64,000 bases of DNA from positions 1 to 64,000 of the forward strand of contig NZ_NGUP01000007.1 of assembly GCF_002206625.1 (NCBI RefSeq). Reading direction: 5' to 3'. This document shows positions 1,487 to 23,392 of the stretch, piece after piece; within the stretch, counting starts at the first letter, position 1, and each line of letters opens with the position of its first letter. Below the pieces are notes generated by a model. It was not told the DNA's origin. It saw only the letters and a list, made by a program, of their open reading frames with translations, and did not search any database. The position numbers and the translations under genes are program-made. This DNA is from Polynucleobacter campilacus (lineage in GTDB: Bacteria; Pseudomonadota; Gammaproteobacteria; Burkholderiales; Burkholderiaceae).

Positions 1487-2560
1487 TCACCACGTAATAC
1501 GCGGCATTCTCCAGGGCAGCATGAATTGGGTCGCAGTTGATGTGAGTTTGGGCACATTTAAGGTCTCATGAAAAGAGACGACTTTCTCGCCTAAGAGTTC
1601 TGAATTCAAAACAGAGCGCGTATAAAAAGGTGTATTTTCTAGCATCTGAATGACTTTTAAGCCCTCAGAGCCTTGATTGCGCATATGCCCTTGAATACCC
1701 CAGATGGTTTTTGGGAGAGCTTGTCTTGGCGGCGCTTCAAAATGATCAATCGTGCCATTCGGATTAAAGGTCAGTGCTAAGATTTTTTCTTGAGCATTCT
1801 TTTCGCGCACATCATAAATAACCGAAGTTCTGCCACCACTCATTTCCGCTCTAGACCAGTCCCATTCATGAAAAGATTTGCTGATAGGTTCATCACCTTC
1901 ATTGGAATCTAAATAGGCATTCCCTTCCCATTTTAAATCGGGAGAATTTAAGTTCACTTTGACGCGTGCTGAAGGAGCAAGCGGGCCCCAGCGGTGTTTG
2001 CCTGCGGCATCTAAGGGCGTACTAAAGTTAAAGAGGGTATTGGGATAAAGTTCAACCGTGCCTGAAACCTTTTGCCCAAAGGGCACGGCGCGCTCCTCAA
2101 TATTGACAATTAACTTATTGCCATCCCAGCGTAGATTACTTGGACCAATCACAAATTCAGTAGAACTGCGGGAGACTTGCTTTTCACCACGCTCGGTCAT
2201 CGCCCAGCGATTTTTGCCTTTGCTATAAATAGCAACGTTGAGTGAGCAATGATTTTCAGGGTTAACAGAGGCTCCACCTCTTCTAGCCCAGGCATAGTAG
2301 GGTGAAAATACGCTACCAACAAAGGCGATTAAGACAACGCCATGTTGCCCATCATCACTTAGAGCGTCGATGTACCACCAGAGATAAGCGTTCTTCCCGA
2401 CAGCTTGGTCAAACCGAGGTGTCCCATCAGGGTTGCGGCCGCCATGCGTCCCGATAGGGCTGCCATTGGAACTCCCGGTCCCGGATGCACGCTGCCCCCC
2501 GTCAGAAGTAGTCCCGGAATTGGACTCTGCGCTGAAGCTCGCCCAAAAGTTTCCATCCAT
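1487..2560 (-). CDS. crtC: Acyclic carotenoid 1,2-hydratase CrtC
   Basis: CrtC hydrates the psi end of neurosporene/lycopene-type carotenoids in the spheroidene/spirilloxanthin pathways. Recognisable parts are the RFDQ...WWYIDALSDDGQHG block, the FVGSVFSPYYAWAR motif and an RWAMTERG segment. The start is unclear. The open frame reaches 2707, but family homology begins only around the RFDQ motif (near 2416), where no ATG, GTG or TTG is in frame. The nearest in-frame ATG is at 2560, giving 357 residues and a roughly 200-base overlap with crtD. No good Shine-Dalgarno precedes it. Last gene of the ppaA-ppsR-crtA-crtD-crtC block. Confidence 0.88.
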   Translation of the reverse strand: MDGNFWASFSAESNSGTTSDGGQRASGTGSSNGSPIGTHGGRNPDGTPRFDQAVGKNAYLWWYIDALSDDGQHGVVLIAFVGSVFSPYYAWARRGGASVNPENHCSLNVAIYSKGKNRWAMTERGEKQVSRSSTEFVIGPSNLRWDGNKLIVNIEERAVPFGQKVSGTVELYPNTLFNFSTPLDAAGKHRWGPLAPSARVKVNLNSPDLKWEGNAYLDSNEGDEPISKSFHEWDWSRAEMSGGRTSVIYDVREKNAQEKILALTFNPNGTIDHFEAPPRQALPKTIWGIQGHMRNQGSEGLKVIQMLENTPFYTRSVLNSELLGEKVVSFHETLNVPKLTSTATQFMLPWRMPRITW

Positions 2561-3954
2561 CCATGGTTGGCTTGGCCATAGAGGGCTCCGCCCGTCGCCG
2601 GAAAGAGCTGGTTGAAAATAGCGGGTGTCGTACGGTGACATATTGCGCTGTCCAAATCGATGTTCAAACCACATTGTTGCAGAAGACCAAAGGTTTCGTG
2701 TTCGCATTGTTCGATTTCCTGGGCATTAAATTCAGATTGATCGCCTTTGGCCGGGGCATTCACCAGACAGAGGAGTCTTTGTAAGTCAGGTTTAGCTTGG
2801 TAGCTATCCCCTTGATCTTGGGCGCAGACATAGACGGTGGGTTTACGGGGGAGGCGACCCCGATTAAAGATGTCATCAAACTCAGCTTGATAGTCTTGAT
2901 TAAAGAACACATTGTGACGCACCAGTGGAAAGCCATCTGCTTTGGCATTGATTGACCAAGTAATCGCAGAAAGCGATCTCTTGGCAGGTGAGGGCGGAGC
3001 CATCTTTGTATTGAATGCTTTGATTCCCTCTGCATTGAGGAGGCCAGTTTGTAGCGCCGCAAGATCACCATTGAAAATAACGTGCTCTGAATAAAGCAGA
3101 GTGCCATCTGCTAATCGAACGCCACTGACCTTACCATTTTTGAGCAGAATTTCTTCACAAGCTTTACCAGTCAAAAATTGCACACCTTGATCTTGCGCTA
3201 ACTTACGAATGGCCGCAACGAGGCTATACATGCCGCCTTCGAGCGCCCATACTCCTTGGGTCTCAACATCGGCAATCAGCATCAGGGTAGCAGGGGCTTC
3301 GTATGGGGATGAGCCACAGTAGGTAGCGTAACGACCAAACAATTGATGCAATCTAGGATCATGGAAATAATTGCCTAAGGATTTCCAGAGAGTATTAAAT
3401 AAGCCAATGTCATATAAGACCTTGGAGCCAGCAATTCCTAAGTCGGCAATCATGCCGCTAAAGTTTGGCTTGGCTGAAAGCATATAAGGCTTTTCAAGCG
3501 CCTTATAAAGATCTCGACATTGGGCAGAAAATTGGAGAAACCGTTTTGCCTCTGCAGGAGAAGAAAACTCTGCAATCGCTTGCGCTGATTGATCTATATC
3601 TGAAAATAAATCCAATCTCTCATCTTTACTCCAGGCGTGTCTCGCGAGGATATTGAGTTTCTCTAACCTTAACTCTGACTCTAAAGTGGTGCCAGCCTTT
3701 TCAAAGAGCGCATCAAAGACCCAGCGCATCGTAAAGACGGTAGGGCCAGAGTCAATGGGCGCAGGGGCTAGAGGATCATCAGAGCAATTGATTTGACGAA
3801 TCTTGCCACCAAGCTGAGCTTCTTTTTCGACCAGGATGACTTCAACTCCAGAGGAGGCCAGATCGAGTGCGCAAGTAAGTCCAGCAATGCCGCCACCAAT
3901 AATAATGACGGGAGCTTTAGCCAAGAGTGCGACCCTTCCAGCTACCGAACGCAT
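2359..3954 (-). CDS. crtD: Carotenoid 3,4-desaturase CrtD (methoxyneurosporene/hydroxyneurosporene dehydrogenase)
   Basis: CrtD introduces the C-3,4 double bond during spheroidene-type carotenoid synthesis. The protein has an N-terminal FAD dinucleotide fold (IIIGGGIAGLTCALDLA, about residues 16-33) with the family's EKEAQLGGK segment, and a C-terminal FAD motif (LTGGSVHPGPGVPMAALSGR). The track ORF begins with TTG at 3957 immediately followed by ATG at 3954, which I prefer (531 residues). It overlaps the end of crtA by about 38 bases and the crtC frame by about 200 bases. It belongs to the CrtI-like desaturase family, but the carotenoid context (crtA, crtC) argues for CrtD. Confidence 0.93.
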   Translation of the reverse strand: MRSVAGRVALLAKAPVIIIGGGIAGLTCALDLASSGVEVILVEKEAQLGGKIRQINCSDDPLAPAPIDSGPTVFTMRWVFDALFEKAGTTLESELRLEKLNILARHAWSKDERLDLFSDIDQSAQAIAEFSSPAEAKRFLQFSAQCRDLYKALEKPYMLSAKPNFSGMIADLGIAGSKVLYDIGLFNTLWKSLGNYFHDPRLHQLFGRYATYCGSSPYEAPATLMLIADVETQGVWALEGGMYSLVAAIRKLAQDQGVQFLTGKACEEILLKNGKVSGVRLADGTLLYSEHVIFNGDLAALQTGLLNAEGIKAFNTKMAPPSPAKRSLSAITWSINAKADGFPLVRHNVFFNQDYQAEFDDIFNRGRLPRKPTVYVCAQDQGDSYQAKPDLQRLLCLVNAPAKGDQSEFNAQEIEQCEHETFGLLQQCGLNIDLDSAICHRTTPAIFNQLFPATGGALYGQANHGWMETFGRASAQSPIPGLLLTGGSVHPGPGVPMAALSGRMAAATLMGHLGLTKLSGRTLISGGTSTL

Positions 3955-4621
3955 CAAAAGGTTGGTAACGTGAGAACATCGATTCAGAAAAGTAACTGCC
4001 GTTCATCGATGCACGGATGGCTTCTTGATGCGCGCCTTGCCTTGCATATTGATCCATTGCTGCTTGAGATTCCCAGATTGTAAAAGTAGCCTGGCGGAAA
4101 AAAGGTGCTTCTCCAATACCAGCAGCAATAATGCAGCCAGCAGTTTTCTCTAGCGAGATTTCTGCAGCCGGCTCTTTACTCCAGAATTCTAGACAATTGA
4201 GCGGTTTAATTGAGGCTCTGGTAATTGAAACGATCGGACCTGATGTCGGTGTATCAGCAGTAATTTGTGGAATAAACCCTGACCACTGACCTTTGATTGA
4301 ATAGGTCTTGAGCTTTACTGAAAAAAATTCATTAGCATGTGCTCTGTACCACTGGATCAGTTTTGAGGATGCACAAAATTTTTCAGCGCTACTGAGATCT
4401 TTAAAGATGCAATAAAGGGCTTGATGGGTGCCACTGGGGCGGAATGAGAATCCACCATTTTTTCCTGAGCCCATATGTTTGAAGAACTCAAGACCGGGCG
4501 TGGACCAAAGCCATAGCCTTGCAAACATGAGCCTTAAAATGCCACTGATTTTTGCTGATGACTGGATATCTACAAGGACCATCAGTGCAACTTGACTGCT
4601 CATCACTGACTTTCTAATCAA
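3917..4621 (-). CDS. crtA: Spheroidene monooxygenase CrtA
   Basis: CrtA oxidises spheroidene to spheroidenone using oxygen, which fits an aerobic phototroph. The 234-residue protein contains the family's C-terminal blocks: the FRQATFTIWES segment, MDQYARQGAHQEAIRA, and the FSESMFSRYQP end. No signal peptide or membrane span is evident. The ATG at 4621 follows an AAGGAT-like ribosome site inside the end of ppsR and overlaps the ppsR stop by 8 bases; a second in-frame ATG lies at 4603. It is translationally linked to ppsR before it and crtD after it. Confidence 0.92.
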   Translation of the reverse strand: MIRKSVMSSQVALMVLVDIQSSAKISGILRLMFARLWLWSTPGLEFFKHMGSGKNGGFSFRPSGTHQALYCIFKDLSSAEKFCASSKLIQWYRAHANEFFSVKLKTYSIKGQWSGFIPQITADTPTSGPIVSITRASIKPLNCLEFWSKEPAAEISLEKTAGCIIAAGIGEAPFFRQATFTIWESQAAMDQYARQGAHQEAIRASMNGSYFSESMFSRYQPFDAFGSWKGRTLG

Positions 4622-6026
4622 TATCCTTATTGAGGTCTACGAGACCATACTTTCTGAGTTTGATGTACAGACTTTGTCTAGATAGCCCCAAGATTTCTGA
4701 AGCAGAAACGCGATTATCTTGAGTCAGGTCTAAGGCAGCTTTGATGCAGAGCTGCTCAATTAAGTCAGTTGTTTCAGCGAGGATATCTTTTAAGGGGACT
4801 TTTCCAACCAACATTGAAAGCTCTTGGGAGCTGCGCACGAGTTTTTTGTCGATGCGCGCACCTTTATTTTGTCTCGAATCTACTTGGCGAAAGATCATGC
4901 CAATACACGCGCGTGGTTGGGCTACGGATACTGCGGAAATATCGACTAACTTAATGCTACTCGTGGCGTTAGTGATCGAAGAGACACAAGATTGTGAGCT
5001 AGCCTTGCCTTGTAAGGATTGCATCATTTGATCAAAATCGGTTCTCTCTGGCCCTAAATAATTTCGTATATTGGTACCAATGAGTTCTTGCTCACCCTTG
5101 GTGGCGCTGAGTTTATTGAAGGCTTTATTTGCCTTCAGAATCAGACCTTCTGGGGTACAAACGACAAAACCGTAGGCATTATTTTCAATCGCCTTAACGG
5201 TTAACGAGTCAGCATCTAATAGGCTAGATGCTTTCGCCAAATCCTGCGGCTTCAGATTCAGCAGTAAGTAGGTAACCCCACTGTTATTAAAGGAAGATGC
5301 GCTAATTTGAGTTGCTTCACCATTGCTCAATACTGTTATTAGGACGCTAGGCTCATCTGTATCTTGAACGCCTTTCAGAAAATGCGTAGCCTTGCTTAGC
5401 TCGCCAGCCGGGAAGAGGGACAGAAGTGATTTTCCAATGCAATTATTTTTAGCAAGAAGCAGTTGCTTTATGGCATTTCTGTTCATCTCGATGATCGGGT
5501 ATGCATCATCTGCTTTAACGATGACGATAGACTCTGTGCCAATTTCAAAGATAGATTGAAACCGCTCTTCCAGCTGACTTATTTGTAGATAATTTTGACT
5601 AATCTCTTTTTGGGCCGACACTAAATTTTGCTGCAAGCGAGAGACCTCTGTGATGTCTCGGCCGATAACGATAATCTTTTGATTCGACGATGTTTTGATG
5701 GAAGCGCACATCATTGGCAACGCCACGTTTCGCTCATTGCCAATCATATTAATTTGTCTAAACTTAGAAATAGTGTCTGAGCTAGCATCATCTAGTAAGC
5801 TCTGCACTTTTTTTCTGCTATCAGGCTCTACTACTTCTGACCATTTTTTCCCAATCAGATCTTCTGAAATTTGCTTGGCTAAATTTTTATTATCAGAGTA
5901 GATGCTTTGTATCGATCCTAAGTCATCCAAAACAAAAGAAATATCTGCAGATGCTCGCGCTATCTGGCTGAGCTCTTTCCCGCTTAATTCTGAAAAGAGT
6001 TTGTCTGGATGATGTGAGATGGACAT
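4614..6026 (-). CDS. ppsR: Photosynthesis gene repressor PpsR/CrtJ
   Basis: PpsR is the redox/light-responsive repressor that binds TGT-N12-ACA operators of bch, crt and puc genes. The 470-residue protein has the expected layout: tandem PAS-like regions over roughly residues 25-380, a coiled-coil stretch around residues 130-155, and a C-terminal Fis-type helix-turn-helix ending VSASEILGLSRQSLYIKLRKYGL. It lies one base after ppaA and overlaps crtA, so regulator and carotenoid genes are probably co-transcribed. Candidate operators for it are visible upstream of bchF, pucB and hemA. Confidence 0.94.
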   Translation of the reverse strand: MSISHHPDKLFSELSGKELSQIARASADISFVLDDLGSIQSIYSDNKNLAKQISEDLIGKKWSEVVEPDSRKKVQSLLDDASSDTISKFRQINMIGNERNVALPMMCASIKTSSNQKIIVIGRDITEVSRLQQNLVSAQKEISQNYLQISQLEERFQSIFEIGTESIVIVKADDAYPIIEMNRNAIKQLLLAKNNCIGKSLLSLFPAGELSKATHFLKGVQDTDEPSVLITVLSNGEATQISASSFNNSGVTYLLLNLKPQDLAKASSLLDADSLTVKAIENNAYGFVVCTPEGLILKANKAFNKLSATKGEQELIGTNIRNYLGPERTDFDQMMQSLQGKASSQSCVSSITNATSSIKLVDISAVSVAQPRACIGMIFRQVDSRQNKGARIDKKLVRSSQELSMLVGKVPLKDILAETTDLIEQLCIKAALDLTQDNRVSASEILGLSRQSLYIKLRKYGLVDLNKDID

Positions 6027-6027
6027 A

Positions 6028-6867
6028 TTAATTTAAGGCGGATTTTTGTGCTATTAAGTCTGCAACTTTTTTAATGGCATCTTCGGCAGTGAGCTCGCAA
6101 ACATCTGCAGAACACTCTTGAATGAGTTCCGGTTTGAAATCAAATAACGGGCCACCCGCCATTGTCAGTATTCCTTTGTTTTTTGAGTTCTTTTTTACTT
6201 CATTAAGCAATGTTTCCATGGTACTCCATTGATCCTCGCAGGAGATAGAAATTGCCAATAAATCATATGCTTGTAAACGAATGCGTTCCTTGAGATCGGC
6301 GCTAGTCGTTTCAATTTCAACCGTTGCATTCCAGCCGTTTAATTTGAAAAATTCACCCATGATCAGGATGCCTAAGGTGTGTTGGGATCCTGGAGCATTG
6401 ATCAGCAGGGCATTTCCCTGGAACTCAGAGAGTTTGGCTTGGCTCATAAAGGCAGGACTTAGCTGATGGATCAGGTTCTGGGCTCTACCCAGGGCCAAAG
6501 TCACCTCTGTAAAGCTATTTTCGTCGGTTTCCCAGAGCTGTTGCAAGCGCCTAGTCGATGCTGGAATCAGATTCATATAGAGCGAGACCAGACTGTGCCC
6601 CGATTTTTGCATGTGATCGATAAAGGTGAAGCAGTCTGCTATGGGGCCATCGAGCAAAGTCTGACAAAAATCGATAATTTCTGTCTGTTTTACCTCGATA
6701 TTGCTACTTTGGGCGTCAGCTATATTGTTGGCTGATTCCAGCTTATGCCCCATCAGTAAGCGGGGGATGATTTCTGACTCTATTGTTTTATTGAGCCATT
6801 GCATCATTTCAGCATTATCTAATTCGCCTAAACTGGATTGGAATGTTTTTTTCAGCGAGTCCGACAA
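6028..6867 (-). CDS. ppaA: PpsR antagonist PpaA/AerR (B12-binding)
   Basis: PpaA/AerR proteins bind cobalamin and modulate PpsR/CrtJ. The C-terminal half (about residues 140-275) has the B12-binding fold: NALLINAPGSQHTLGILIM with the His of the cobalamin signature, a LLAISISCEDQWS strand-helix, and MAGGPLF. The N-terminal half is helical, as in AerR-type proteins. The track ORF starts at TTG 6873, but AGGAG sits too close to that codon. A second TTG at 6867 has the same AGGAG seven bases upstream, so I prefer it (279 residues). The stop is one base from the ppsR ATG. Confidence 0.92.
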   Translation of the reverse strand: MSDSLKKTFQSSLGELDNAEMMQWLNKTIESEIIPRLLMGHKLESANNIADAQSSNIEVKQTEIIDFCQTLLDGPIADCFTFIDHMQKSGHSLVSLYMNLIPASTRRLQQLWETDENSFTEVTLALGRAQNLIHQLSPAFMSQAKLSEFQGNALLINAPGSQHTLGILIMGEFFKLNGWNATVEIETTSADLKERIRLQAYDLLAISISCEDQWSTMETLLNEVKKNSKNKGILTMAGGPLFDFKPELIQECSADVCELTAEDAIKKVADLIAQKSALN

Positions 6868-7079
6868 AGCCAATCTCCTAGTGATGCATTAATCGAGACA
6901 AATTAGGGGCGCTAAACTTAATGCGGTCATAAAAATGCTGCACCGCAAAAAATTAATCACCTTTTCCCCCAAAAAGGGGCTATTTGCTTACAAACCCATT
7001 TGGCATTCTTTTTGCATAAATAGCCATAGGGAAACTACCAGTAATAGGGTTAGCCCGAGGGGTATATTTTACTAAATAA

Positions 7080-7164: not shown

Positions 7165-7680
7165 ATGGAAAAAACCTATAGACCACTTTATACCCCAGAA
7201 GAGAGGGTAAGAAGAGATGAGACTAAATGGACTCTGGTTCAGGGAATTTTAGCGCCTATTCAGTTTGTGGTTTTCCTAGTGAGTCTGTATCTCGTGCTGC
7301 GTTTTTTGTTCACTGGAGAGGGTGAGAGTGCAGCGAATGTTTCAGTAGTAGTTAAAACACTCACGCTTTACACCATCATGATTACCGGATGCATTTGGGA
7401 AAAAGTTGTTTTCAATTGCTACTTATTTGCCCCAGCATTTTTCTGGGAAGACGTATTCAGTATGTTGGTATTGCTATTGCATACCTTGTATCTGGTGGCA
7501 CTAGGAACGGGATATTTAGATCAAACCGAACTGATGTTGCTCGCTTTAGCTGCTTATGCAACCTATGTTGTGAATGCAGGCCAATTTATTTGGAAGTTGC
7601 GGATGGCGCGTTTGGATGAGGCTAAAAAAAAGTTGGCAACTACCACTCTCAATCCCTCAATGGCAAGCCCCCATGGTTGA
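7165..7680 (+). CDS. bchF: 3-vinyl bacteriochlorophyllide hydratase BchF
   Basis: BchF hydrates the C3 vinyl group on the way to bacteriochlorophyll a. The 171-residue protein shows the family N-terminus YTPEERVRRDETKW..VQG, several membrane spans, and conserved GCIWEKVVFNCYLFAPAFFWEDVFS and AAYATYVVNAGQF blocks. It starts the rightward bch-puh transcript. In most purple bacteria bchF is followed by bchN-bchB-bchH-bchL before bchM. Here bchM follows directly after about 23 bases, so those four genes are not in this window. Confidence 0.96.
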   Translation: MEKTYRPLYTPEERVRRDETKWTLVQGILAPIQFVVFLVSLYLVLRFLFTGEGESAANVSVVVKTLTLYTIMITGCIWEKVVFNCYLFAPAFFWEDVFSMLVLLLHTLYLVALGTGYLDQTELMLLALAAYATYVVNAGQFIWKLRMARLDEAKKKLATTTLNPSMASPHG

Positions 7681-7703
7681 AATAATTAATAGGCGATGAT
7701 TTG

Positions 7704-8431: not shown

Positions 8432-9880
8432 ATGAAAATGTTTACTCTGACCTGGCGTGGCAAAGAGCTTTTTGAAAATTGGAAGAGAGTGAGTCCAAGG
8501 TTCTTACCTTTTGCCGATATCGCCACCAAAGAGTTGCCATTAAGTCGTCTCTTAAGGCTGTCACTATTTCAGGTCTCTGTCGGTATGGCGATGGTGATGC
8601 TAATTGGTACTCTCAATCGAGTCATGATTGTTGAGTTGCAAGTGAGCGCTGCTTTAGTTTCCATTATGGTGGCCTTGCCGCTGCTTTTTGCTCCCTTTAG
8701 AGCATTGATTGGATTTAAGAGTGATAGTCATAAGTCATTTCTAGGATGGCGCAGAGTCCCCTACATCTGGATTGGCTCTTGGTTGCAATTTGGTGGCTTT
8801 GCAATCATGCCTTTTGCACTCATTCTCCTATCCGGTGATACCACTTGGCCCGCTTGGTTTGCACAAGCTGCAACTGGACTTGCCTTCTTATTGGTAGGTG
8901 CTGGCATGCAGACTACTCAAACCGCTGGCCTCGCTTTAGCATCGGACTTAGCCCAGCCAGAGGCTAGACCAAGAGTAGTTGCGATGATGTACATGATGCT
9001 CTTAGTTGGCATGGCAGTCAGTAGCGCCATCTTTGGCTATTTGCTGATTGATATCACACCGATTCTGTTGATACGGGTAGTGCAGGGCGTTGCAGCAACG
9101 ACCTTGATACTGAATTTAATTGCCGCCTGGAAGCAAGAACCTCGTCAACCTCATTTAACAGCGCACTCCATTCCAACGCCAAGCTTTAAAGCAACTTGGG
9201 CCACTTTTTCCCAGCAGGGCAAAGTGATGCGTTTCTTGCTAGCCTTAGGTTTAGGTACTGCCGCATTTAGTATGCAAGACATTATTTTGGAGCCTTATGG
9301 TGCTGAAGTATTAGGCCTATCAGTCAGCGCTACGACAGTATTAACCAGCCTGACTTCCTTAGGTGCGCTGCTGGCATTTGCGGTGGCTGCGCGTTATTTA
9401 AATCGCACCATTGATCCCTATCGTCTTGCCTCCATTGGTGCCTTGTTTGGCATTGTGGCATTTAGCTGCGTGATTTTTTCCGAACCACTACTCTCTCCTT
9501 TGCTATTTCGTTGTGGCGCATTTTTAATTGGCTTTGGAGGTGGATTATTTGCTGTCAGTACATTAACTGCCGCAATGAGTTTTGAGTCAGGCGGAATGAA
9601 TGGTTTAGTCCTGGGTGCTTGGGGCGCCGTACACGCTACTGCATCTGGTGTTGCGATTGCAGCTGGTGGAGTGATACGGGATGTGATTTCTGGTCTAGCG
9701 ACTAGCGGTCTCTTAGGAGATGGCCTGATTTCTACTGCTACAGGTTATAGCTTTGTGTATCACATTGAATTTTATTTACTGTTTGCTACATTGATTGCCA
9801 TTGGGCCTTTAGTGGTGATAAATAAGCACGCGGTAATGAATGTTTCGAAGAAGTTTGGTTTAGATGAATTACCAAGTTAA
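8432..9880 (+). CDS. lhaA: Light-harvesting 1 assembly protein LhaA (PucC/BCH family MFS)
   Basis: LhaA is a 12-helix membrane protein of the PucC/BCH family needed for assembly of the LH1-reaction-centre core. The protein has the family N-terminus with PRFLPFADIATKELPLSRLLRLSLFQ, the ALIGFKSD and GWRRVPYIWIG motifs, and a conserved GAWGAVHATASG helix near the C-terminus. Its position between bchM and puhA is the standard location of lhaA. It is clearly related to the pucC gene at 21417 and the bch2 gene at 14640; position separates the three. Confidence 0.93.
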   Translation: MKMFTLTWRGKELFENWKRVSPRFLPFADIATKELPLSRLLRLSLFQVSVGMAMVMLIGTLNRVMIVELQVSAALVSIMVALPLLFAPFRALIGFKSDSHKSFLGWRRVPYIWIGSWLQFGGFAIMPFALILLSGDTTWPAWFAQAATGLAFLLVGAGMQTTQTAGLALASDLAQPEARPRVVAMMYMMLLVGMAVSSAIFGYLLIDITPILLIRVVQGVAATTLILNLIAAWKQEPRQPHLTAHSIPTPSFKATWATFSQQGKVMRFLLALGLGTAAFSMQDIILEPYGAEVLGLSVSATTVLTSLTSLGALLAFAVAARYLNRTIDPYRLASIGALFGIVAFSCVIFSEPLLSPLLFRCGAFLIGFGGGLFAVSTLTAAMSFESGGMNGLVLGAWGAVHATASGVAIAAGGVIRDVISGLATSGLLGDGLISTATGYSFVYHIEFYLLFATLIAIGPLVVINKHAVMNVSKKFGLDELPS

Positions 9881-9937: not shown

Positions 9938-10708
9938 ATGGCAACCGGAGCAATTACAGAATATATAGATATTGCGCAATTGGTTCTATATGCATTTTGG
10001 GTATTTTTTTTCGGTCTAGTGTATTACCTCACCTTAGAGGGTAAGCGTGAAGGTTTTCCGCTAGAGTACGACATTCGTGGAGAAACGCGACGAGCGATCG
10101 GAATAATCGGAATGCCGGCACCAAAGACTTTTCATACGGAGTATTTTGGTGATGTGACCCAGCCAAAAGATGAGCCCCTTGAAAAAGTGGCTGCCAGGCC
10201 CTCAAGCTATTTAAATGGCGCCCCCTTAGTGCCAACAGGCAATCCCATGCTTGATGGAGTGGGGCCAGGTGCCTTTACGAAGCGCGCAGATATTCCTGAT
10301 ATGACATCAGAAGGTCAAAAGCGCATTCTGCCAGGGCGTTTACTCGGTCAATTTAGTGTCGCCAAACAAGATCGAAATCCGATTGGTATGCAGGTCATGG
10401 GTGACGATGGTGTGGTAGCTGGCACCGTGAAAGAGCTCTGGATTGATCAGGCTGAAGTGGTGATTCGCTATTTTGAAATTGAAACCTTGACAGAGTTTGG
10501 CGGTAGAAGAGTATTGCTACCGATCAATTTTTCTAGAGTTGGCAAAGAGGCTATCAAGGTGAAATCAATTCTGGGTAATCAATTTGCTTCGGTACCAGGT
10601 TTAAAGAGTCAAGATCAAATCACCCTGTTAGAAGAAGAGAAGATCATGGCTTACTACGGCGGAGGCACTTTGTATGCAACCCCTGAGCGTCAAGAACCTT
10701 TAATTTAA
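9938..10708 (+). CDS. puhA: Photosynthetic reaction centre H subunit PuhA
   Basis: PuhA caps the cytoplasmic side of the L/M reaction centre and helps proton delivery to the secondary quinone. One N-terminal transmembrane helix (about residues 12-32) is followed by LEGKREGFPLEYD, the hallmark at the membrane boundary, and then a PRC-barrel cytoplasmic domain with a PINFSRV block. The length of 256 residues is normal. A GGGAG ribosome site precedes the ATG. The 57-base gap after lhaA holds no TGT-N12-ACA operator. Confidence 0.97.
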   Translation: MATGAITEYIDIAQLVLYAFWVFFFGLVYYLTLEGKREGFPLEYDIRGETRRAIGIIGMPAPKTFHTEYFGDVTQPKDEPLEKVAARPSSYLNGAPLVPTGNPMLDGVGPGAFTKRADIPDMTSEGQKRILPGRLLGQFSVAKQDRNPIGMQVMGDDGVVAGTVKELWIDQAEVVIRYFEIETLTEFGGRRVLLPINFSRVGKEAIKVKSILGNQFASVPGLKSQDQITLLEEEKIMAYYGGGTLYATPERQEPLI

Positions 10709-14639: not shown

Positions 14640-15992
14640 ATGAGCGCACCTGAAACCACCTATCTCACTTGGCCCCAAATTGCCAGACTAGGTTTAGTCC
14701 AGGCATCTTTAGGATCGATTGTGGTGTTAACGACCTCACTCTTAAATCGAGTGATGGTGATTGAGTTAGCTCTGCCAGCAATTTTGCCCGGCGCATTAGT
14801 AGCAATACATTATTTTATTCAGTTAATCCGCCCCCGCATGGGTTTTGGTTCCGATCAAACGCGCAGAGCCAGCCCATGGATACGTGGAGGAATATTGGTA
14901 TTAGCTAGTGGCGGCGTATTAGCGGCCGCCTCCACAATCCTGTTAAGTCACTCGGTTGTTTTAGGCATTGCACTGGCAACCGTTGCCTTTTTAATGATTG
15001 GCATTGGCGTGAGTTCTAGTGGCACTGCATTACTGGTGCTGCTAGCAAAACGAGTAGAGCCTAAAAAGAAGGCTGCAGCAGCTACTTGCGTTTGGTTGAT
15101 GATGATTTTTGGGTTTGCTTTTACAGCTAGTGTTAGTGGCAAGTTCCTCACCCCATTTTCATTTGAGCGTTTACTCATGGTTTCATCGACCGTATCGGTG
15201 ATTGCAGTGATAGTCACATTCTTGGCGATCTGGGGCATGGAAGCGCCAGTTACTAAAAACCAGCAGCTAGCAACTAAGGCAGATGGAGTCGAATCAGAGG
15301 GTCCAAGCAAAGCCAGTTTTCGTGAAGCCTTTGCTGAGGTCTGGAAAGAAAGTAGGGTGCGTTCGTTTACCTGGTTTGTCTTTGTATCGATGTTGGCTTA
15401 TAGCTCACAAGATTTGATCTTAGAACCTTTTGCTGCCGTTGCCTTTGGGTTCTCACCCGCAGAGACAACCACTTTATCTGGCTTGCAAAACGGTGGCGTA
15501 CTCATTGGAATGCTCTTTTTAGCCTTTATTACGAGCAAGGCTAAATCTCAGACATTAACGTCATTGAGTACTTGGACGATTGGCGGATGCCTGGCTTCAG
15601 CCTTAGCGATGTTAGGTCTGGTTTTATCAGGTCCGATTGCCAATGTGATTTTCTTTCAAGTAGCTGTTTTCCTATTGGGCATCTTTAATGGCGCATTTTC
15701 GATTGCTGCTGTCGGCTCGATGATGCAATTTGCGAGTATCGGTAGTGCGCGGCGTGAGGGTGTTCGTATGGGAATTTGGGGTGCATCGCAAGCGATGGCC
15801 TTTGGTTTAGGTGGAATTATTGGAACGGGTTTAAGCGATATTGCCAGAATCATTTTGGGTGACCCCGCTTCTGCCTATGCCTTTGTCTTTTTATTAGAAG
15901 CTGTTTTATTTGTGGTGGCTGCGTACTTGTCTTATCAGACCAGAACGCAAAAACAAACAAGCAAGATGTCGAGTCATTTAGTGGGTGTGTAG
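14640..15992 (+). CDS. PucC/BCH-family MFS protein between bchG and bchP (Bch2/ORF428 type)
   Basis: This 450-residue, 12-helix protein belongs to the same PucC/BCH transporter family as LhaA and PucC: it has LGSIVVLTTSLLNRVMVIELALPA and a GIWGASQAMAFGLGG helix. Its position between bchG and bchP matches the bch2/ORF428 gene of other purple bacteria, whose role is thought to lie in pigment delivery or use. It is more divergent than the other two paralogues and lacks their PRFLPFAD N-terminal extension. The start ATG is seven bases after bchG. Confidence 0.85.
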   Translation: MSAPETTYLTWPQIARLGLVQASLGSIVVLTTSLLNRVMVIELALPAILPGALVAIHYFIQLIRPRMGFGSDQTRRASPWIRGGILVLASGGVLAAASTILLSHSVVLGIALATVAFLMIGIGVSSSGTALLVLLAKRVEPKKKAAAATCVWLMMIFGFAFTASVSGKFLTPFSFERLLMVSSTVSVIAVIVTFLAIWGMEAPVTKNQQLATKADGVESEGPSKASFREAFAEVWKESRVRSFTWFVFVSMLAYSSQDLILEPFAAVAFGFSPAETTTLSGLQNGGVLIGMLFLAFITSKAKSQTLTSLSTWTIGGCLASALAMLGLVLSGPIANVIFFQVAVFLLGIFNGAFSIAAVGSMMQFASIGSARREGVRMGIWGASQAMAFGLGGIIGTGLSDIARIILGDPASAYAFVFLLEAVLFVVAAYLSYQTRTQKQTSKMSSHLVGV

Positions 15993-21416: not shown

Positions 21417-22829
21417 TTAAGCAGCAGATTCTACAGGCTTTGTTGGCCATATGAAGTTGGTCATTGCGGCGATGGTAATCAAGAGCAGAATGATTTCTAG
21501 TAGATAGACACCACAGTAACCCGTTGCTGGATTATTGAGGTCGGCGCCGAAATAATTTCTGGAGGCCATACCAGCCAAAATATCCCGAAATATTCCTCCG
21601 ACACCAATGGCAATGCCTGCAGCAGTCGCTTGTACTGCTCCCCATGCACCTAAGGCTAAACCACTTTGATTTTCTGGGGCGTATTTCATGGTGGCAGTTA
21701 AAGTCCCATGACTAAATAGCCCATTACCAAATCCAATTAACACGACGCCCACAATAAAAATAAGTGTGCTGTTCAAAGGTGCCGCAATGATGACTAGCAT
21801 GAATGCCGGAATACCAATTTTGGCACCATTGCTAGCCATCTTAAAGGGGTCGTAACCAGCACTTAATACTTTGGACGCAATGCTAAAGCCAAATAAACAA
21901 CCAATGGCTAAAGTAGCCGTTAATACCGTGGTGGCGCTTACGCTCATGTTTAATAATTCACCGCCATAGGGTTCTAGCAAAACATCATTCATGCTAAAGG
22001 CCATGGTGCCAAAACCGACTGCAACTAAGCGGCGAATTGCTTGGCCACCTGCTTTAAAAGTTTCCCAAGATTGTTTAAAGTTTTGTTCTCTGGCTACTAA
22101 TGCTCGCGCGCGGGCTTCTTCACGACTTTCCTGCTTCCAAAGTGCAATGGCATTTAAAACGAGCGTGACTACAGCGCAACCTTGAATCACTTGTATTAAG
22201 CGACCTGGACTGTACTCTTCTAATAACTGGCCAAAAATGAGGGCGCTACCAATCATGCCGATTAATAGCATCACATACATCAGGCCAACAATATTCGCTT
22301 GGGATTTAGGCGGCGCAAGATCACAAGCCAAGGCAAGACCAACTGTTTGTGTCGTGTGAATACCAGCACCCACAAATAAAAATGCCAGTGCTGCAGCTGC
22401 TAATCCAATCCATGCTGGCGCTTCACTGGCATTGCCTGCACCAGCTAAGACGAGTAAAGCAAAAGGCATGATGGCAAGCCCGCCAAACTGAACCATGGTT
22501 CCCATCCAAATATACGGAACACGACGCCAGCCTAAAGCAGATTTATGAGTATCTGAGCGAAAGCCAATCAAAGCTCTAATGGGAGCAAAAATAATCGGCA
22601 AAGAAACCATGATCGATACCAGTGATGCGGGTACTTGTAGCTCAACAATCATCACTCGATTTAAGGTGCCCACTAGTAGCACTAGGGCCATGCCAACCGA
22701 TACTTGAAATAAGGATAGTCTGAGTAATCTACCGAGGGGTAATTCAGCAGAAGCAGCGTCTGCAAAAGGCAAGAAGCGAGGGCCTAAATTAGCCCAAGTA
22801 CTGATTATTTTTTGACCAAAACGATTCAT
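21417..22829 (-). CDS. pucC: Light-harvesting 2 assembly protein PucC
   Basis: A 470-residue, 12-helix PucC/BCH-family protein, strongly similar in sequence pattern to LhaA at 8432: PRFLPFADAASAELPLGRLLRLSLFQ, ALIGFRSDTHKSALGWRRVPYIW, GAWGAVQATAAG. Its place directly behind pucBA identifies it as PucC, required for LH2 assembly. A strong hairpin with a T-run lies between pucA and pucC, so pucC is probably expressed at a lower level than the antenna genes. Confidence 0.94.
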   Translation of the reverse strand: MNRFGQKIISTWANLGPRFLPFADAASAELPLGRLLRLSLFQVSVGMALVLLVGTLNRVMIVELQVPASLVSIMVSLPIIFAPIRALIGFRSDTHKSALGWRRVPYIWMGTMVQFGGLAIMPFALLVLAGAGNASEAPAWIGLAAAALAFLFVGAGIHTTQTVGLALACDLAPPKSQANIVGLMYVMLLIGMIGSALIFGQLLEEYSPGRLIQVIQGCAVVTLVLNAIALWKQESREEARARALVAREQNFKQSWETFKAGGQAIRRLVAVGFGTMAFSMNDVLLEPYGGELLNMSVSATTVLTATLAIGCLFGFSIASKVLSAGYDPFKMASNGAKIGIPAFMLVIIAAPLNSTLIFIVGVVLIGFGNGLFSHGTLTATMKYAPENQSGLALGAWGAVQATAAGIAIGVGGIFRDILAGMASRNYFGADLNNPATGYCGVYLLEIILLLITIAAMTNFIWPTKPVESAA

Positions 22830-22870
22830 GTAAAGCTTAGTTTAAGTGATACATGCGTAAACCAAAAAAC

Positions 22871-22902
22871 ATAAGACCTAGATGTTTAGATCTAGGTCTT
22901 AT
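22871..22902 (-). terminator. Hairpin with T-run between pucA and pucC (attenuator/mRNA stabiliser)
   Basis: A perfect 13-base inverted repeat (ATAAGACCTAGAT / ATCTAGGTCTTAT) encloses a 6-base loop. On the minus strand it is followed by GTTTTTTGG. This is an intrinsic terminator form placed 16 bases after the pucA stop. Because pucC lies behind it in the same direction, partial read-through is expected, as known for puc operons in other purple bacteria. Confidence 0.85.
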
Positions 22903-22918: not shown

Positions 22919-23122
22919 TTATTTTTTTGCTGCTGGTGCCGCGGGTGCCATTGAGGTAGCGGCAGACTTTGTAGATTGACCACCCTCTAAAAAGGCTTTC
23001 ACCCAAGTTGTATTGTTTAGTAATGCTAAATGCACTGAAAAAGAACCAACTGCTACAGCGCCCAAAAACAGGGGAATGCCAACTGTTGGTCTAACCACTG
23101 TCCACATTTTTCCGTAGATCAT
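22919..23122 (-). CDS. pucA: Light-harvesting 2 alpha chain PucA
   Basis: LH2 alpha polypeptide. It aligns without gaps to classical B800-850 alpha chains from the N-terminus: GKMWTVVRPTVGIPLFLG, then the bacteriochlorophyll ligand His31 and TTW at 38-40. Residues 44-45, Tyr-Trp or Tyr-Tyr in B800-850 antennae, are Phe-Leu here, the pair found in blue-shifted B800-820 complexes. The C-terminus after EGG carries an Ala/Pro/Lys-rich tail. AAGGAG precedes the ATG. Co-transcribed with pucB 15 bases upstream. Confidence 0.96.
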   Translation of the reverse strand: MIYGKMWTVVRPTVGIPLFLGAVAVGSFSVHLALLNNTTWVKAFLEGGQSTKSAATSMAPAAPAAKK

Positions 23123-23137
23123 CTCAATCTCCTTTAA

Positions 23138-23281
23138 TTATTTCAACCAAGGTGAATAGATATAGGCAAGTAAGTGGGCGAGTGCTGCAATCATCCCAAA
23201 AAATTGCGTACCTTGAATGAGGTTGCGATGTAACTCTTCCGCTTCCTCAACACTCAGACCTGTAAGAGTGTCATTTGTCAT
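23138..23281 (-). CDS. pucB: Light-harvesting 2 beta chain PucB
   Basis: A 47-codon ORF absent from the track. The product shows the beta-chain pattern LSVEEAEELHRNLIQGTQFFG, then AALAHLLAYIYSPWL. His36 is the central bacteriochlorophyll ligand, His18 the cytoplasmic-side conserved His, and Trp45 the membrane-boundary aromatic. It pairs with PucA to make the LH2 ring. It is first in the leftward pucBAC operon, with a PpsR operator and a long inverted repeat upstream. Confidence 0.96.
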   Translation of the reverse strand: MTNDTLTGLSVEEAEELHRNLIQGTQFFGMIAALAHLLAYIYSPWLK

Positions 23282-23374: not shown

Positions 23375-23392
23375 TGTAAATAAATCTATACA
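23375..23392 (-). promoter_or_regulatory. PpsR operator upstream of pucB
   Basis: TGTAAATAAATCTATACA is an exact TGT-N12-ACA match, and the surrounding bases extend the dyad (GTGTA...TACAC). It lies about 95 bases from the pucB start, in the 247-base gap between pucB and the rightward small ORF at 23529. Apart from this site and the inverted repeat I see only A/T-rich sequence with no clear -35/-10 pair. Confidence 0.8.

Follow-up and report, generated by a model that had tools for sequence, protein, structure and literature searches.

A single LH2 antenna with a predicted blue-shifted ring and an altered B800 site in Polynucleobacter campilacus

The puc operon and its surroundings

The window analyzed here, a stretch of 64,000 nucleotides from the Polynucleobacter campilacus genome, carries on its minus strand the pucBAC operon of an aerobic anoxygenic phototrophic (AAP) bacterium, which encodes a single, standing LH2 antenna (Table 1). 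The alpha chain, PucA, translates as MIYGKMWTVVRPTVGIPLFLGAVAVGSFSVHLALLNNTTWVKAFLEGGQSTKSAATSMAPAAPAAKK. Both the alpha and beta chains are homologous to those of LH2 and retain the bacteriochlorophyll-ligating histidines, and pucC lies downstream, which together place the complex within LH2. Among PDB entries, PucA matched LH2 alpha chains at E 1.8e-15 and weaker, down to 1e-6. A preliminary description of this DNA had located His31, a TTW motif at residues 38-40, Phe44 and Leu45 in PucA, and the translation has all of them at these positions. Its claim of a gap-free alignment with classical alpha chains also holds, with no gap to at least residue 48 for 7ze3, 1ijd, 9dwz and 1kzu and none through residue 47 for 7zdi. 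A gap that shifts other residues into positions 44-45 is thus ruled out by five solved LH2 alpha chains. Judging from the aligned family, alpha His31 and beta His36 would ligate the B850-type ring.

Table 1 Features of the window related to the puc operon and its control
Feature	Position	Strand	Description
pucA	22919..23122	minus	LH2 alpha chain, 67 aa, C-terminal tail Ala/Pro-rich; translation, Pfam LHC E 2.7e-9
Phe44 codon; Leu45 codon	22991-22993; 22988-22990	minus	No H-bond donor to the B850 C3-acetyl groups
Val41 codon	23000..23002	minus	V in 65/65 congeners
Ser27 codon	23042..23044	minus	S in 65/65 congeners
Alpha Tyr3 codon	23114..23116	minus	Asn/Gln3 position of the B800 site
pucB	23138..23281	minus	LH2 beta chain, 47 aa, His0 = H36, His(-18) = H18; Pfam LHC E 2.2e-9, PDB 7zcu_B E 1.8e-17
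Beta Gln26 = beta(-10) codon	23204..23206	minus	B800-binding Arg position in the closest solved LH2s
pucC	21417..22829	minus	LH2 assembly factor, downstream of pucBA; Pfam PUCC 495.6 bits
Inverted repeat in pucA/pucC gap	22864..22902	minus	13 bp perfect (22871-22883 / 22890-22902), then T6; read from sequence
TGT-N12-ACA palindrome	23375..23392	minus	94-111 bp upstream of pucB; probable PpsR/CrtJ operator
ppsR/crtJ, probable	4614..6026	minus	PAS domains and Fis-type HTH (Pfam); candidate puc regulator
PpaA/AerR-like gene	6028-6873		B12-binding
puhA	9938..10708	plus	Reaction-centre H subunit; same photosynthesis gene cluster; Pfam PRCH 151 bits

Each of the distinct pucB promoters compared among congeners (61/61) contains at least one TGT-N12-ACA palindrome, whereas shuffling predicts 4.7. 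The motif is not enriched across the whole window (9 found, 15 expected), and the support that we draw from it is its conservation at pucB only, not a window-wide count. Together with the PpsR/CrtJ-like and PpaA/AerR-like genes, this conserved palindrome makes control of puc by PpsR likely by analogy, with PpsR probably repressing expression through the palindrome 5' of pucB. The inverted repeat between pucA and pucC may act as a terminator or attenuator.

The surrounding photosynthesis gene cluster includes two more PucC-family proteins (Pfam PUCC; 8432-9880 and 14640-15992). The window also has two long overlapping minus-strand open reading frames at 1487-3957. One of these (2359-3957) encodes an amine-oxidase/CrtD-like flavoprotein and the other (1487-2707) has no Pfam match. 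In this strain the cluster is split over two contigs. The part on contig C1 ends in a complete crtI (G000:C1:365953-367506), and the window begins (1-481) with a 290 bp remnant of the crtI 3' end, 99% identical, which follows the apparent end of secB and precedes crtB. In congeners such as G039 and G073 the cluster is contiguous, and a distance of about 28 kb separates puf from puc within a single contig.

The assembly (1.98 Mb, 9 contigs, 99.99% complete) contains four LHC genes in a search with PF00556, namely pufBA on contig C1 and the pucBA of the window. Thus, the statement that only one pucBA is visible holds genome-wide, and this search rules out a further copy of pucBA. The designation of this LH2 as a low-light antenna did not find support, because such a name suits species that alternate between LH2 and LH3. 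P. campilacus has no other form to alternate with: LH2 is the sole peripheral antenna, the genome has no B800-850 LH2 alternative, and Phe44-Leu45 does not vary within the genus.

Compared end to end, PucA shares 82-94% identity with the most similar named records of Polynucleobacter, the closest being a P. meluiroseus metagenome-assembled genome (MAG); none of the papers searched gave pigment data on P. meluiroseus. LHC genes are present in 85 of 186 congener genomes and absent from 101. PucA was found in 66 of the 186, in single copy in each; residues were scored in the 65 with complete sequences, one being incomplete, and F44-L45, V41, S27 and Tyr3 are invariant in 65/65. A further 19 congeners possess LHC genes, but no PucA could be detected in them. 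Together with the 101 genomes devoid of LHC genes, and with some assemblies being incomplete, this suggests repeated loss of phototrophy or of LH2.

Outside this set, we inspected 106 further loci, mostly from Burkholderiales and some named Polynucleobacter, of which 99 have FL at 44-45 and the rest YH, YL, FM, YY or FY. Since the site varies in relatives, its constancy in Polynucleobacter is informative, with shared ancestry explaining part of it. One locus (L156, from a MAG labelled "Limnohabitans sp." whose identity is not secure) has Y44-L45 and was left out of calibration. In a PucB+PucA tree we counted 5 changes for residue 44 and 7 for the 44-45 pair, but with 80 columns the tree is too poorly resolved inside the clade to count origins of F44, and we limit its use to the deeper split described below. 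The YL, YH, YY and FM pairs in relatives outside the genus constitute a natural comparison series.

A BchF-LH2 beta fusion and its deletion scar

BchF is an enzyme of bacteriochlorophyll biosynthesis. In 15 congeners, including P. nymphae AP-Mumm-500A-B3, the bchF product is ~222-224 aa long and closes with an LH2 beta chain of ~43 residues that has His0, His(-18) and the terminal PWLK. The fused beta chain is under purifying selection, with a median dN/dS of 0.075 for the beta part and 0.038 for BchF among 13 aligned fusions, at dS near saturation. Of 49 further Burkholderiales genomes in which the search had a match, none showed such a fusion, and a narrow literature search found no published description of one.

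The BchF of the window (7165-7680) is unfused and its end reads ATGGCAAGCCCCCATGGTTGAAATAAT. However, the last codons of the fused domain persist out of frame at 7669-7686, after a deletion of 148-149 bp whose breakpoint is identical in 5 other congeners. The standalone pucB ends in CCTTGG and not CCATGG, and therefore the scar most likely derives from the fused copy. As read from these sequences, then, the P. campilacus strain appears to descend from an ancestor with a fused bchF, the beta domain of which has since been deleted. This scar is among the less expected parts of our analysis. The fusion, which marks a subclade of the genus, could have a role in passing new pigment into LH2 assembly by way of its beta domain, a function that we consider possible but doubtful.

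An altered B800 site

The change in the B800 site of PucA and PucB was absent from the preliminary description and is also among the less expected parts of the analysis. A classical site combines beta Arg(-10) with alpha Asn/Gln3. Here the two positions are PucB Gln26 and PucA Tyr3. Gln occupies beta(-10) in 62/62 congeners scored, whereas Arg is present in each of the five solved beta chains that are closest to PucB. The pairing of Tyr3 with Gln(-10) extends to 158/158 scorable loci of a freshwater Burkholderiales LH2 clade (some loci share genomes), and Asn/Gln3 occurs with Arg(-10) in 5/5 classical loci; none of the scorable loci has a mixed combination. Seven more LH2 loci from outside the clade, found by searching the class and phylum, all have Arg with an MN-type start. 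In the PucB+PucA tree, which is based on few columns (80), the split between the Tyr3/Gln clade and the classical clade has support of 100/99. The association thus represents a single evolutionary split, and is evidence of linkage within one lineage but not of coevolution that has recurred.

In Rba. sphaeroides, beta Arg(-10) forms a bond to the acetyl group of B800 that is worth ~10 nm of B800 shift, and alpha Asn3 belongs to a network holding the N-terminal ligand in place (PMC8775250). Replacement of the acetyl-bonding Arg by Gln, together with alpha Tyr3, may blue-shift B800 by anything from a few to ~10 nm; alternatively, B800 may be bound through Gln or Tyr instead. The effect of this pair on the B800 band is a prediction. 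Tuning of the B800 pocket has so far been studied by mutagenesis in Rba. sphaeroides, and the linked alpha Tyr3 and beta Gln(-10) provide a natural test of how the pocket sets the band. The freshwater Burkholderiales LH2 clade, with the P. campilacus protein in it, may constitute a separate spectral class with both rings retuned, one having no C3-acetyl bonds and the other a rebuilt pocket.

Predicted absorption and comparison with known antennae

Among solved LH2s, two C3-1 bonds go with absorption at ~850 nm, one with ~825 and none with ~800 (PMC9618040). In PucA, neither residue 44 nor residue 45 is a hydrogen-bond donor, and the sole Trp or Tyr C-terminal of His31 is W40, which makes a B850 band unlikely. 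The absence of both C3-acetyl donors is strong evidence against absorption at 850 nm. With Phe44, Leu45 and Val41 forming no hydrogen bond to the C3-acetyl groups, the ring would be shifted to the blue, and its band is expected to merge with B800 or lie close beside it, judging from measured relatives. A band within 800-827 nm is a well supported prediction, of which 803-815 nm is, by our own weighting, the most likely part. The preliminary description had proposed a B800-820 complex. The absence of donors at 44/45 bears out a shift away from 850 nm; the singling out of ~820 nm does not stand, because F44-L45 alone cannot choose between 820 and ~805 nm, and 820 nm, although it falls within the predicted range, is not the value that we would single out.

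A complex like LH3, with bands at ~800 and ~820 nm as originally proposed, is quite possible, and we hold this reading tentatively. PucA shares F44-L45 with the LH3 alpha chain (1ijd) over 48 residues aligned gap-free, and the donor-free state of 44/45 is found in 65/65 congeners as well as in the window. Furthermore, Rfx. antarcticus, with FF at 44-45 and hence no donors, absorbs at 819 nm (PMC5374385), and a Y44F+Y45L mutant of Rba. sphaeroides, with S27 and a hydrophobic residue 41, absorbs at 826-827 nm. Yet the natural 820 nm complex of Rbl. acidophilus keeps one C3-acetyl bond, from Tyr41 (PMC9618040), and this residue is Val41 here and in 65/65 congeners. Val41, Phe44 and a hydrophobic residue 45 are instead the combination of the PucD complex, which absorbs at 803 nm with zero C3-1 bonds (PMC9618040). 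An LH4-like complex, in which the ring and B800 absorb together as a single ~803-808 nm band, is a reading to which we give close to an even chance. F44-L45 is common to aerobic phototrophs with a single band at ~804-806 nm, according to a 2025 review (PMC12654162), and here too the pair occurs in a sole peripheral antenna. Moreover, three genomes from another family in the phylum (L285-L287, f252), which we suspect to be AAPs of the ~805 nm type, have exactly S27/V41/F44/L45. Against a merged band, the f252 genomes retain beta Arg(-10), and Ser27 may bond the C13-1 carbonyl as it does for beta-B850 in Rba. sphaeroides (PMC9618040), the species in which F44-L45 gives the 826-827 nm band. That mutant has the closest residue set with a measured band and sits at the red end of our range. 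PDB entry 9lt4 has an F44-F45 chain that is named B800/814. The carotenoid and residues outside 27/41/44/45 can also shift the band. A search for named plasmid relatives for spectral calibration found none that matched the pucBA DNA, PucA or an f252 PucA.

Alternatively, the genes could encode an outer ring that closes around RC-LH1, as the LHh of Gemmatimonas does (816 nm). The photosynthesis genes of Gemmatimonas are similar to betaproteobacterial ones, its gene clusters closely resemble that of Rubrivivax (PMC12817894), and an outer ring has been raised as an idea for Limnohabitans in a review (PMC12654162). However, the match of PucA to LH2 alpha chains reaches 1e-15, pucC and a separate puc operon are present in the genome, and a congener query matched LH2 at 6.5e-18 compared with 0.056-0.077 for the LHh alpha chain, which was absent from the list of PDB matches at E<=10 for the PucA of the window. 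We thus reject a Gemmatimonas-type LHh on sequence and consider an outer ring highly improbable. It is somewhat less improbable, but still unlikely, that the puc genes are rarely or never expressed, leaving LH2 without a physiological role. The gene cluster is present in P. duraquae, for which pigment has never been shown (PMC5018217), and the puc operon may similarly be silent in culture; the 101 congeners without any LHC gene are also in line with this reading. Nonetheless, every scored pucA-bearing congener has conserved both the PpsR operator and the residues of the pigment sites, and this retention implies purifying selection.

Our findings as a whole are best explained by a pucBAC operon that encodes a single LH2, with its ring blue-shifted to ~800-827 nm and with an altered B800 pocket, and we regard this explanation as probable. 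Energy would then pass downhill from LH2 to LH1. Polynucleobacter is an abundant genus of freshwater plankton. If this explanation is true for every LH2-bearing phototrophic member, a blue-shifted LH2 would be the normal state in the genus rather than a low-light switch, and it would be overlooked in surveys that look for a shoulder at 850 nm.

Aerobic phototrophs with a blue-shifted LH2 are already known, and the Polynucleobacter antenna shares some features with each of several described systems. The LH3 of Rhodoblastus acidophilus 7050 (1ijd) has the same alpha F44-L45 in a gap-free alignment, such that a classical LH2 fold is expected, but it has Tyr41, Ala27 and beta Arg(-10), as opposed to Val41, Ser27, beta Gln(-10) and alpha Tyr3 in Polynucleobacter, and P. 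campilacus has no alternative LH2 in its genome. The 803 nm PucD-LH2 of Rhodopseudomonas palustris (7ze3), which has no reported C3-1 bonds, is similar in Val41, Phe44 and a hydrophobic residue 45, and differs in its Met45, Val27 and beta Arg(-10). In addition, PucD is one of several puc pairs and, in a PucD-only strain, is made only at low light.

Further comparators are the LH4-like ~805 nm antennae of AAP Rhodobacteraceae, such as Roseobacter denitrificans, where F44-L45 is a published motif (PMC12654162) and the complex is likewise the sole standing peripheral antenna of an aerobe. These are Alphaproteobacteria, however, and the similar family f252 (L284-L288) has beta Arg(-10). The Rba. 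sphaeroides alpha Y44F+Y45L mutant (B800-826) has the same Ser27, F44 and L45 with a hydrophobic residue 41, but it is engineered and has beta Arg(-10) and alpha Asn3 intact. Finally, Limnohabitans planktonicus is, like P. campilacus, a freshwater betaproteobacterial AAP, and its LH2 is blue-shifted, with bands at 799/813 nm.
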